Shown one piece after another: positions 763 through 37,033 of a DNA stretch of 64,000 bases. Source of the DNA: Armatimonadota bacterium (GTDB taxonomy: Bacteria > Armatimonadota > Fimbriimonadia > Fimbriimonadales > Fimbriimonadaceae); the NCBI GenBank assembly GCA_022563855.1, contig JADFMN010000011.1:1-64000 (forward strand), read 5' to 3'. The notes below the pieces were generated by a model, which ran no database searches, had not been told where the DNA came from, and saw only the letters and a list, made by a program, of their open reading frames with translations. The stretch's first letter is position 1. Each line of letters begins with the position of its first letter. Both the position numbers and the translations under genes were made by a program.

Positions 763-1596
763 ATGTTAGTATCAGCACTCACCCTTTTCGCCGCCATCAC
801 CTTGACCAACCAGGACGAAGTTGAAATACCGGTCACAAACGTCTCGGCAAGCTACGTGTATGACTATTTCACGCTGCAGGGTCGATTTACTAGCCCGCTT
901 TATTCGCAGAACAGGCTCGGATTCCTTCCCGATGGAGTCACCATTGAAATCACAACCGGAAAGAACAGTATTACCGCTCAAGGAACGCTTGAAGGAACGC
1001 GAGATCTGGCGCGGATCATCGCCCTACTCGACAAAGAGCCCCAAAACGTAGAACTCGACATTCACGTGTACGCCCGGCCACTAAACCGCACGATTGCGGC
1101 GAAGATGCTGACAGCAACCAACAGCACATGGGAGTACGTTGGACTTGCATCAGATACGACGATTCGCATCACGCCGATAATCAATGGTGACGGCACGATC
1201 GTTATTAGCTACGACCTCGGCACGATGGGATTTGGATTGTACGGAATCGTTAGGATTCGTGCGGGCACGTACGTTTACGCGAGGGTTTACACCGAAGAAA
1301 TCATCGATGAGGCGACAGGAGAGAAGAGGCTCGCGCTGATCATCAGCCATTCCGCAAGCAAGGACGAGATTCCGTCTTTCTTCCAGGACGATGATCCATT
1401 CAAGGACTTGCCTCACGACAGACACGTTCATGGTGATGGCGAAATTCCATCGCGTTTCGTCTCTTCGCGTAGCCGGTTTTCGCGTAGCCGCCGACAGGCT
1501 GTTATCAACGCAGTTGGCGATTTTGCAGTGGACAACCCACCGGCTGGCCTCGACGTGCGGCTCGAACTCATGGCAACGCATGAGAAAACCGATTAG
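763..1596 (+). CDS. Exported protein with a secretin-like short repeat, function unknown
   Basis: The start at ATG 763 was chosen because GAGGAG lies six bases upstream (751-756); a longer frame opens at 619 but lacks such a site. The product is 277 aa with a hydrophobic N-terminus (MLVSALTLFAAITL) that may be a signal peptide. The middle, about residues 50-90, has the rhythm of secretin N-domain repeats (ITAQGTLEGTRDLARIIALL, then a strand with VELDIHVYARPL). The rest is beta-rich. The last ~50 residues are Arg/Ser-rich and less orderly, so the C-terminus may have drifted. The stop overlaps the convergent peroxiredoxin stop by four bases. I do not recognise a defined family. Confidence 0.6.
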   Translation: MLVSALTLFAAITLTNQDEVEIPVTNVSASYVYDYFTLQGRFTSPLYSQNRLGFLPDGVTIEITTGKNSITAQGTLEGTRDLARIIALLDKEPQNVELDIHVYARPLNRTIAAKMLTATNSTWEYVGLASDTTIRITPIINGDGTIVISYDLGTMGFGLYGIVRIRAGTYVYARVYTEEIIDEATGEKRLALIISHSASKDEIPSFFQDDDPFKDLPHDRHVHGDGEIPSRFVSSRSRFSRSRRQAVINAVGDFAVDNPPAGLDVRLELMATHEKTD

Positions 1597-2093
1597 TCCA
1601 AGTTTGCTAAACAAGACTTGATCGCGTCGAAGTCGGGCTGCTCTGGCGGAGTCGGGGTCACCTCTGCGTACCGCACGACGCCCTGCTTGTCGATCACGAA
1701 CGCTGCGCGCTTCGAGCCTTCTCCCATCCCGAGGAAGTCGGGCAGCACCACGTCGTACGCCCGGACGGTCGTCTTCTCGTAGTCGCTCAGCAGCGGAACA
1801 CCGATCTTCTCCGCAGCCGCCCACGTCTTTTGCGCCAAGGCTGAGTCAACGCTGATCGCAAGCACCTGCGCGCCCATATCTTGGTAACCCCCCAGGGCGT
1901 CGGTCATCGTGCACATTTCGGTCGTGCACGGCGGCGTAAACACGCCCGGAAAGAACAGAAGCACGACGTTGCTCTTGCCTGCGTAGTCGCCGAGGCTCAC
2001 CGTAGCCAGCCCAAAATCGTTCGTCTCCGCGCCTTCCATGTTCGCAGACATCAAAGAAAAGTCCGGAGCCTTGCTTCCAACCGAAATCGCCAT
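1593..2093 (-). CDS. Peroxiredoxin (AhpC/TSA or Prx5-like)
   Basis: The 166-aa thioredoxin-fold peroxidase reduces hydroperoxides in the cytoplasm. The opening MAISVGSKAPDFSL and the motif FFPGVFTPPCTTEMC are diagnostic: Thr-x-x-Cys around residue 57 is the peroxidatic site, and a second Cys lies four residues later. The conserved catalytic Arg is probably in SKRAAFVIDKQG. The upstream frame extends further without a family match, so ATG 2093 is the start. The gene is convergent with the exported protein, and their stop codons overlap. The reductant cannot be told from sequence. Confidence 0.9.
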   Translation of the reverse strand: MAISVGSKAPDFSLMSANMEGAETNDFGLATVSLGDYAGKSNVVLLFFPGVFTPPCTTEMCTMTDALGGYQDMGAQVLAISVDSALAQKTWAAAEKIGVPLLSDYEKTTVRAYDVVLPDFLGMGEGSKRAAFVIDKQGVVRYAEVTPTPPEQPDFDAIKSCLANLD

Positions 2094-2334
2094 AACGAAC
2101 CAATTATGACGTTTTTGTACATATTCTGTGCCTCCGCCGGCTGAGCCATTGCCATATTGAAGTCGCCAAACGGCACGCCGTCGGAACTGCCGGGCCTCGC
2201 TTGGACGTCTTGTAGGGTTGTACGAGCTTCGAAATAGTCGAACGTAGGGGACTGCCGCGGAACCTTTCAGTCCGCGATGTTGGTAAAACGGTTGATCAGT
2301 TCCCGGTACAATCAGAAACAGGAAGTCGAATTTC

Positions 2335-33633: not shown

Positions 33634-33683
33634 GCCGAGTGCAGGTGGTCTAGAGCAAATCATGTCGAAGGACGACGTTATTG

Positions 33684-33774
33684 GCGACGTTTCAGTGAGT
33701 AGGGCAACCATCGTGAAAGTCAGCAGCGACGAGTTTAAGATGATGCTCGAATCCAAGGAAGGCGGCGGGAACAG
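33684..33774 (+). pseudogene. Fragment duplicated from the DUF1579-like gene
   Basis: The translated segment GDVSVSRATIVKVSSDEFKM is nearly identical to residues ~130-150 of the protein at 36515. Only ~30 codons are present, with no start or stop context of its own. It is a remnant of segmental duplication. Confidence 0.7.
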
Positions 33775-33828
33775 TGCTGTTCCGGACGCCGACCGGAACA
33801 AAGTGGCACGCGAAGAGATCGGAAAGTC

Positions 33829-33870
33829 CCCTCTCCCTACTCCTAAAGGGAGAGGGTTAGGGAGAGGGAG
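33829..33870. repeat. Dispersed palindromic repeat, GGGAGAGGGTTAGGGAGAGGG variant
   Basis: CCCCTCTCCCT, a short loop, then AGGGAGAGGG and TTAGGGAGAGGG. Same family as at 28528, 29160 and 47785. No gene here. Confidence 0.7.
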
Positions 33871-33916
33871 CGAACTGTACGAGCACCTTCTGTCGATGCA
33901 TGATTCCTTTACTGAA

Positions 33917-33941
33917 CCCTCCACACTGCGAGTGTGGAGGG
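33917..33941. terminator. Hairpin downstream of the ICMT-like gene, copy 2
   Basis: An 11-bp perfect stem (CCCTCCACACT/AGTGTGGAGGG) with loop GCG lies 14 bases past the methyltransferase stop. There is no strong T-run, so it may be a weak or factor-assisted terminator. Confidence 0.4.
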
Positions 33942-33954
33942 ATGCGAAAACCCG

Positions 33955-34413
33955 TCAAATCCAGCGCCGCACGCGGGAGCGGTAATCCTCGTACGAAGAC
34001 CCGAAAGTCCGCAGCAGGTACTCCTCTTCGCGCGCGATGACGGTGCGGCCGACGAGAAAGACCGCCAGCGGCAACAGCACGAGCGGCCAGGCTGGGGAGA
34101 ACGCAAACGACAGGCCGACGTAAGCTACCGACATCCCGACGTACATCGGGTTGCGCGTGAAACGGTACGGGCCGACGACCACGAACTCCGTGGCGGACTT
34201 GTTCGGCATGATCGTCGTCCGCCGCGACCAGAACACTCCGACCGACACGAACATCAGCCCGAGCCCAGCCACGACCAGGACTATGCCGGGCAGCTCCAAG
34301 AACGCAGGCAGGGACCAGGCAAAAAGCCGGTGCAAGCCAAGCCCCAGACCGAACGCCGCCGCGAAGATGAACGGCGGCGGAACGTGCACGCCGGGAGAGT
34401 CAGCTTTGGTCAC
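33955..34413 (-). CDS. Isoprenylcysteine carboxyl methyltransferase-family membrane protein
   Basis: The 152-aa integral membrane protein has the family core GPYRFTRNPMYVG (SAM-binding), followed by two hydrophobic spans and ARExYLLRTFGSSYEDYRSRV. This places it in the ICMT/PEMT (NnrU-like) superfamily, methylating a lipid or membrane-bound acceptor of unknown nature. There are four predicted membrane segments. A deleted duplicate lies at 32151-32399. Confidence 0.85.
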   Translation of the reverse strand: MTKADSPGVHVPPPFIFAAAFGLGLGLHRLFAWSLPAFLELPGIVLVVAGLGLMFVSVGVFWSRRTTIMPNKSATEFVVVGPYRFTRNPMYVGMSVAYVGLSFAFSPAWPLVLLPLAVFLVGRTVIAREEEYLLRTFGSSYEDYRSRVRRWI

Positions 34414-35431: not shown

Positions 35432-35529
35432 TAATCTCACCTGCACCGATGTTGGCATATCCGGGCATCAGACTGGCAAGAAGCGGACAGGCCGTACCGG
35501 CCTGTCCGTCTATTGATCGCTGGGCTAAT

Positions 35530-36372
35530 TCAATTGACCTGGAACGGCATGTCTTTCGGCAGGTCGAACACGACTTTAAGGTCAGAGTCGGTATCCGAAT
35601 TGAGCCGCACCGCGGCTCCACCGCCACCGCCTCATCCGTAGTTGATACTTCCACTGCCGATCGTCCTGCCGTAGCCGTCGACGACGCGGAACGGCATCGC
35701 AATCCGCCTTCCGTTCTGATAAATCGTAACGCCCCCGCGACCGTACGTGAGCGCCATGTTGACGTTTGTATTAGAACCGCGCCGTACCAGGCGACCGCTC
35801 TGCAGAATCTTTCTAGGAACAGACACTGTTGTAATCTCGCCTGCCTTAACAACCAGCTTCGCGAAGTTGATACTGGTTGCCGTGATCATCCATTCAGTGC
35901 CGTCCTCGCTCTTCTTGACGGCACGGTAGCCGACGACAGTGTAGGTGCCCGGAGCCAACGCCCGCGTTTCGCCGGCCTGCCCTTTCTTGTCCCACGAAAG
36001 TCTAATCTCCCTTTGATGTGCGTCGCGCAAAATAACCGCGCCCTCACCGATCGACGACTTCACTCCGGATTGACCGCGTGCTGCCTTCTCCTTGATGAGT
36101 CGCGGATAGTTGTCCCTGTCAGATGTCAAATACGCTGCGAGCGCCCCACGGACGCTCTCTGGAGTGCCGGTTCACGTTGTTCCAGCGATGCGATCGATCC
36201 ACGCCTTGTCCGTCTTGAACTGCGGATCCGGTCTCACGTGGCAAGACGCGCAAGACGTTTCAAACATCTTTGCGACGTCCTGGTCCTGGTGTTGGACAGC
36301 CGTGCCGCCTGGCACTGCGACGGCAGCGCCGACTAGTCCCAGTCCGATTAAAGGAGCGTATCTACTCAACAT
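35530..36372 (-). CDS. c-type cytochrome-like protein with two in-frame TGA codons (candidate selenoprotein)
   Basis: One frame runs from ATG 36372 to TGA 35530-35532 (280 codons) with only two internal stops, both TGA (36174-36172, codon 67; 35634-35632, codon 247). The N-terminus is a signal peptide followed by a haem-binding motif CASCH (Cys41, Cys44, His45). Protein-like sequence continues across the first TGA (DKAWIDRIAGTT, then TGTPESVRGALAAYLTSDRD). A beta-rich domain follows (~90-246), and a Gly-rich segment plus AAVRLNSDTDSDLKV follows the second TGA. A short-loop hairpin follows each TGA. Read conventionally, the region would be a 66-aa cytochrome fragment and a 165-aa orphan. A pseudogene with two nonsense mutations is the main alternative. 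Confidence 0.6.
35602..35618 (-). promoter_or_regulatory. SECIS-like hairpin after the second TGA
   Basis: GAGCCGC-GGT-GCGGCTC forms a perfect 7-bp stem. The loop begins 21 bases after the TGA and its first two bases are G, which fits the bacterial SECIS pattern as I recall it (loop ~16-37 nt after UGA, G in the first loop positions). Confidence 0.45.
36139..36157 (-). promoter_or_regulatory. SECIS-like hairpin after the first TGA
   Basis: GAGCGTCC-GTG-GGGCGCTC forms an 8-bp stem with one GU pair. The loop begins 23 bases after the TGA and its first base is G. Placement is nearly the same as for the hairpin after the second TGA. Confidence 0.45.
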
Positions 36373-36514: not shown

Positions 36515-37033
36515 ATGAGAAAAACACTGCTGATCGTTTCCGCCGTTTTTGCTGCAAGCCTCTGCATGGCCCAGCCAAATACCGAGCCATCCGACGAGAT
36601 TAAGAAGTTCGATTGGATGGTCGGAGAGTGGGTCTCATCTTCCGTCTGGAATATCGACGGCATGGAAATGCCGGTCGAAACCAAAGTTTTGGCCGTCTGG
36701 GACGGCCAGTTCCTGCGACACACTACCGTTAGCGACTTTGGAATGATGGAGATGACTGAGACCATGATGTTCGGCTACGACGCGAAGAACAAGTGGTACT
36801 TTTCCAGCGCTTACACGAACATGGCCCCGATGCCGCGCGTCGAGTACGGCAGGCTCGTCGGCAGCACGCTCGTGATGATCAGCGACCCTTGGGAGATCAT
36901 GGGCGACGTTTCCGTGAGCAGAGCGACAATCGTGAAGGTCAGCGACGACGAATATACGTTTACGCTGGAATTCAAGGAAGGAGGCTCTTGGACTCTGATC
37001 AACGAATCGACTTTCAAGCGCGTCGAGAAGTGA
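36515..37033 (+). CDS. DUF1579-family exported protein
   Basis: The 172-aa protein has a signal peptide (MRKTLLIVSAVFAASLCMAQ) and the DUF1579 beta-barrel pattern: FDWMVGEWVSSS, an FLRHTTVSDF strand, MFGYDAKNKWYFSSAY and a closing WTLINESTFKRVEK. The function of the family is not established. A fragment of this gene is duplicated at 33684-33774. It is divergent from the cytochrome-like gene with a ~140-bp gap. Confidence 0.8.
   Translation: MRKTLLIVSAVFAASLCMAQPNTEPSDEIKKFDWMVGEWVSSSVWNIDGMEMPVETKVLAVWDGQFLRHTTVSDFGMMEMTETMMFGYDAKNKWYFSSAYTNMAPMPRVEYGRLVGSTLVMISDPWEIMGDVSVSRATIVKVSDDEYTFTLEFKEGGSWTLINESTFKRVEK

Follow-up and report, generated by a model that had tools for sequence, protein, structure and literature searches.

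The minus strand of the window, as the whole analysed stretch of 64,000 nucleotides is called here, carries a frame of 280 codons that is read from 36372 to 35530 and interrupted by TGA at codon 67 and at codon 247. It is the single copy of this gene in a genome of 3.18 Mb and 22 contigs. The locus very likely encodes a haem selenoprotein with two selenocysteines (Sec), representing a new family absent from the searched catalogues. This identity is based on comparison, without experiment, and is given a probability of about 0.93, which does not extend to the mechanism. An earlier note, made from sequence alone, had proposed a two-Sec haem protein with this frame, these two TGA codons and a CASCH motif upstream of the first. 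All of this held, with the motif at codons 41–45; the note was silent on the strand. The comparison supports the candidate, and selenium incorporation remains an inference. The features of the locus are:

35530..36372, minus strand: selenoprotein gene, 280 codons and a TGA stop, with two in-frame TGA codons that are shared by homologues
36286..36372, minus strand: probable N-terminal export signal, residues 1–29, a hydrophobic stretch inferred by eye
36121..36300, minus strand: short c-type cytochrome-like domain, residues 25–84, from AlphaFold2 models and a cytochrome c profile match at CxxCH
36238..36252, minus strand: haem-binding motif CASCH, residues 41–45; CxxCH is invariant in 49 of 49 proteins
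36172..36174, minus strand: TGA codon 67, Sec site 1; 35 TGA and 14 Cys among 49 proteins including the window
36139..36157, minus strand: SECIS 1 hairpin, 8-bp stem, loop GUG from +23
35566..36102, minus strand: all-beta region, residues 91–269, without Pfam or NCBIfam family
35632..35634, minus strand: TGA codon 247, Sec site 2, in the motif YGUGG; TGA in 72 of 72 proteins
35602..35618, minus strand: SECIS 2 hairpin, 7-bp stem, loop GGU from +21
35530..35532, minus strand: TGA stop, codon 281; the nearest homologues have TAA or TAG close by
35485..35507, minus strand: perfect inverted repeat (GGACAGGCC..GGCCTGTCC) just 3' of the stop, read from the sequence

We regard the TGA at codon 281 as the true stop because the four nearest homologues end near this position with TAA or TAG. 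The inverted repeat behind it may be a transcription terminator, a reading that rests on its letters only. It is not usable as a SECIS element because its distance from the stop TGA is too large. Two open reading frames of the window, 33662-33985 and 36515-37033, have the near-identical peptide GDVSVSRATIVKVS in common. The latter encodes a DUF1579 protein and the former resembles a partial copy of it.

A first search yielded four relatives, all with two TGA codons and all from the same family and order. The search was widened with a profile over 291 genomes of the phylum and a scan of GTDB genomes, and the phyla of two new loci were sampled with 392 and 338 genomes. A single-sequence scan of genome contigs gave no match, so that an alignment was required as query; a plasmid search was also without match. 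The 48 full-length homologues belong to Armatimonadota (Fimbriimonadia), Planctomycetota and Verrucomicrobiota (Roseibacillus). In the alignment of 49 full-length proteins, window included, sites 1 and 2 are TGA/TGA in 35 and Cys/TGA in 14, and no other residue occurs at either site. In 23 additional proteins, the beta-domain is present without the cytochrome part, each time with TGA at site 2. Together with the 49 full-length proteins, site 2 is thus TGA in 72 of 72 proteins. Cysteine therefore replaces Sec in 14 of 49 proteins at site 1 and in 0 of 72 at site 2. Cysteine forms of site 2 were findable as easily, since the search profile carried a C in this column. The coverage is a sample, and a Cys form of site 2 may exist elsewhere. 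The alignment of Cys or TGA at codons 67 and 247, suggested as a check by the earlier note, thus found site 1 occupied by TGA or Cys and site 2 by TGA alone.

Few columns are identical in all 49 proteins: the Cys pair and His of CxxCH, site 1 (with Sec counted as Cys), site 2 with the Gly that follows it, and one Arg. Site 1 comes after the haem His at a spacing of 22 residues in 49 of 49. A conserved Met or other obvious ligand after CxxCH was not present in the 49 aligned proteins. The frames contain no stop besides the two sites in 48 of the 49. The exception is locus L069 (genome G515; frame 1486-2328, plus strand), where a conserved Trp codon (TGG) reads TGA. This third in-frame TGA is likely a sequence error or a local change rather than a third Sec. 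Close pairs have dN/dS ratios of mostly 0.13–0.5 before, between and after the TGA codons. One pair reaches a dN/dS of about 1 in the stretch after site 2, with very few changes; this short stretch is less informative due to the RNA hairpin located there. Purifying selection mostly acts across all three segments. The pseudogene signs named in the earlier note, relaxed dN/dS and frameshifts, were thus largely absent.

Variation within the family was observed in two groups. A divergent Planctomycetota subgroup (L092-L098) has Cys at site 1 and an additional Cys directly behind the haem His (CxxCHC); its site-2 motif is changed from YGUG to T/S-U-G, and the SECIS-like hairpin is kept. Seven loci (L028, L029, L032, L033, L035, L036 and L038) encode longer exported proteins of about 400–480 residues with an unnamed N-terminal region and a C-terminal Sec domain with the motif HYGUGFTC; L029 and L036 had no Pfam or NCBIfam family match. 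On a quick tree, two branches hold the proteins with Cys at site 1, which implies a minimum of one switch between Sec and Cys, and probably two. Armatimonadota members lie among those of Planctomycetota, which suggests gene transfer. The tree has several long branches and low support near the base.

Each TGA is followed by a short-loop hairpin. At site 1 it is GAGCGUCC-GUG-GGGCGCUC with 8 bp and the loop starting at +23, at site 2 GAGCCGC-GGU-GCGGCUC with 7 bp and the loop starting at +21. The loop positions, the stem lengths and the G as first loop base in both had been described in the earlier note and held exactly. Hairpins of at least 6 bp at the SECIS position were found at 86% of the Sec-type sites 1 (n=35; mean best energy −10.3 kcal/mol) and at 96% of sites 2 (n=72; −9.6 kcal/mol), compared with 12% of 7249 internal codons of the same genes (−2.3 kcal/mol). 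The hairpins after both TGA codons exceed chance. The clearest natural control is the Cys form of site 1: genes with Cys there lack the hairpin (mean best energy −2.8 versus −10.3 kcal/mol, p=2.5e-6), and the energy is not distinguishable from that of internal codons (p=0.21). The hairpin thus goes with the TGA.

Base pairing was also conserved across members. For site 2, eight two-Sec members had 96% paired cells with two-sided changes in 5 of 7 pairs. None of 500 shuffles equalled this in pairing and covariation, and sliding the partner strand cut the pairing to 25–48%. For site 1, the eight members had 89% paired cells and a weaker, modest covariation. In larger sets, site 1 (30 sequences) had 23 two-sided cells, compared with at most 18 in any shuffle; for site 2 (40 sequences), the count was 64 and the highest shuffle value 34. 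The shuffles were not corrected for relatedness. By this comparison, the SECIS stems at both sites are kept by compensatory change, with a G in the loop.

The genome encodes the complete Sec machinery, whose presence had been proposed as a check: a tRNA-Sec (74 bits, anticodon TCA), SelB (C7:98286-100109, 345 bits against a cut-off of 242), SelA (C9:60253-61563, 513 bits) and SelD (C4:338766-339668, with one in-frame TGA of its own). SelB and tRNA-Sec would decode TGA 67 and TGA 247, helped by the hairpin after each, and the comparative evidence for this step is strong. Across 151 relatives, SelB was over the cut-off in 83, including all seven carriers of the set (Fisher p=0.017). In Planctomycetota, selA was present in 37 of 39 carriers versus 12 of 20 non-carriers (p=0.002); the 37 include one gene truncated at a contig end and just below the cut-off. 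A full selA was not found in the draft genomes of the carriers G343 and G504.

The two-Sec gene lies apart from the sel genes in the window genome. The neighbourhoods of the two-Sec form offered no common partner gene in the loci examined and no clue to the substrate. One-Sec relatives are located directly upstream of selA in five Armatimonadota genomes (L106 in G258, L107 in G268, L108 in G240, L109 in G271 and L110 in G232), where they carry the motif YGUGGxC. They are tandem genes in three of these, with three copies in G268 and two each in G240 and G271. No family model names these proteins beside selA. The selD gene follows selA in four of the five genomes; in G232 the contig ends there. 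This arrangement suggests that the beta-domain is a main client of the Sec pathway in several Armatimonadota. As a separate observation, L108:1971-3584 (minus strand) encodes a SelD that has no TGA; its N-terminus is extended by a Cys-rich stretch, and an AhpD/CMD domain is fused to its C-terminus. Similar open reading frames are present in L106 and L109.

An AlphaFold2 model based on the 49-sequence alignment reached a pLDDT of 91.9 and a pTM of 0.87. It predicts helices at residues 25–40 before CxxCH, 53–64 before site 1 and 72–84 after site 1, followed by an all-beta region. Pfam and NCBIfam scans of the protein, all 49 members and four one-site relatives assigned no family. Profile matches to cytochromes c in the PDB were weak and cover the CxxCH stretch only. 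Foldseek searches of both models against the PDB gave only generic beta-sandwich matches with low TM-scores, and the fold of the beta-region was therefore left unassigned. The best Foldseek match, DUF3823, had an E-value of 1.4e-4, but a TM-score of about 0.2, and was rejected. Cytochrome c assembly proteins are present in all seven genomes tested. From the motif, the model and an export signal recognised by eye, we infer a probably exported product. Its N-terminal domain of three helices would hold one covalently bound haem c, and the all-beta domain comes next in the chain. Two points go beyond the earlier note: the C-terminal half is an unrecognised all-beta region outside the cytochrome, and one-Sec relatives without the cytochrome part have site 2 as well.

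The comparison shows that both TGA codons are decoded, almost certainly as Sec. In a pseudogene or truncated gene, the TGA codons would be real stops and the downstream frame a relic. Genes in metagenome-assembled genomes sometimes carry errors, and L069 has its extra TGA at a Trp codon. Against this, 35 homologues have the same two TGA codons, the frames are intact and under purifying selection, the hairpins covary and the Sec machinery is complete, which leaves hardly any room for a relic. The TGA codons could instead be read as another amino acid, by code reassignment or ordinary suppression; an open frame alone cannot in principle name the residue. However, TGA ends the two-Sec gene and other genes here, Cys is the sole alternative at site 1, the hairpin tracks the TGA, and the tRNA-Sec of the genome has a TCA anticodon. 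This alternative can be dismissed with similar confidence, and the statement of the earlier note that TGA is otherwise a normal stop and not reassigned held. Its possible refutations were a lack of Sec machinery, homologues without Cys or Sec or ending at the two sites, and decay of the gene. Wherever these tests were run, they favoured the selenoprotein reading.

For the function, we propose that the selenoprotein is an exported, haem-coupled redox enzyme. Sec2, in a Gly-rich YGUGG turn of the beta-domain, would be the catalytic selenol; a catalytic role is likely because site 2 never varies. Sec1, or Cys1 in 14 homologues, would be its resolving redox partner in the haem domain. Sec1 or Cys1 and Sec2 would form a diselenide or selenenyl-sulfide, and electrons may pass to or from the haem. 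A Cys at position Sec2+4 is present in 20 of the 23 one-site proteins, which lack the haem domain, versus 0 of the 49 two-site proteins (p=6e-15). Since this Cys is confined to one-site proteins, site 1 is suggested as a replacement partner of Sec2. The contrast is confounded by ancestry. The mechanism as worded is an inference with slightly less than even odds. Tentative candidates for the substrate are peroxides, oxyanions of sulfur or selenium, and metalloid compounds.

Other roles of the two sites are conceivable. Site 1, as Sec or Cys, may be the distal axial ligand of the haem iron, and Sec2 a separate catalytic or substrate-carrying selenol. The distal Met of class I cytochromes c lies between two helices after CxxCH, and site 1 has the same location. 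Its spacing of 22 residues to the haem His is constant, it is occupied by Sec or Cys only, and behind CxxCH there is no conserved Met and no other obvious ligand. TsdA is a precedent for a Cys ligand doing chemistry (PMC4423706). The spacings known between His and ligand in class I cytochromes c are longer than 22 residues, and the ligand reading leaves the Sec2+4 contrast between one-site and two-site proteins unexplained. Without structure or spectroscopy, it is no more than a possibility. The same caution applies to a bolder version, a natural c-type cytochrome with Sec-ligated haem iron (Cys in sister lineages) that is coupled to a Sec2 without Cys form in 72 proteins. Redox partner and haem ligand are not exclusive, and site 1 might conceivably be both. 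In a third reading, there is no interaction between the two Sec: the role of Sec2 is to bind a metal or a substrate in the beta-domain, the haem domain only relays electrons, and site 1 is structural or protective. It is in line with the existence of site 2 alone in 23 one-site proteins and with the absence of Cys at site 2, which suggests a job that sulfur does poorly. But site 1 is restricted to Sec or Cys with the strictness of a catalytic residue, and the Sec2+4 contrast suggests that it replaces a partner of Sec2. We consider the non-interacting reading unlikely.

The haem proteins with two Sec appear to form an unlisted selenoprotein family that extends over three phyla. Since none of the 72 relatives has a Cys form at site 2, this site would escape catalogues that rely on Cys/Sec pairs, and this may explain why the family was overlooked. 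It provides a natural test of selenium versus sulfur: site 1 tolerates Cys, and site 2 apparently does not.

A May 2026 inventory comprises 119 prokaryotic selenoprotein families, among them two c-type cytochromes with one Sec each (PMC13188914); none of the 119 appears to share the two-Sec haem architecture or the motif. The open-access literature searched contained no matching report for Armatimonadota or Planctomycetota. Subscription papers, preprints and the supplement of PMC4807772, a Porphyra planctomycete paper that lists selenoproteins there, were outside the scope, and prior notice is possible. The two cytochromes, ExtKL (NF040886) and a tetrathionate-reductase-family octahaem cytochrome (TIGR04315), are likewise c-type haem proteins with a predicted Sec (PMC13188914). 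They are multihaem proteins with one Sec, whereas members of the window family combine a single CxxCH with two Sec and a beta-domain, and none of these members matches the models of the two cytochromes. Two Sec per chain are also known from the double selenoproteins MbdU (NF045648), MduS and the HUGP/GUXX-star fusion (NF041212; PMC13188914), but their domains differ and no NCBIfam match at an E-value of 0.01 links them to the family. The motif GUxG of hypothetical protein DG (NF049953; PMC13188914) resembles YGUGG; its model had no match in the window genome or among family members.

TsdA and SoxA (PMC4423706) are comparable by analogy, with a possible chalcogen ligand near a c haem that would be active in chemistry. 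They have no sequence match to the window family, which differs by its one haem, a mostly Sec-type site 1 located 22 residues after the His and the extra beta-domain with Sec2. In the open-access literature searched, Sec–haem ligation was found only for engineered cytochromes P450 (cited in PMC11273360), which would share selenium ligation of the haem iron if the ligand reading is true. These are laboratory replacements in a b-type haem enzyme and not natural. To our knowledge, there is no earlier natural selenolate-ligated haem, and site 1 would be the first if it is indeed an iron ligand.
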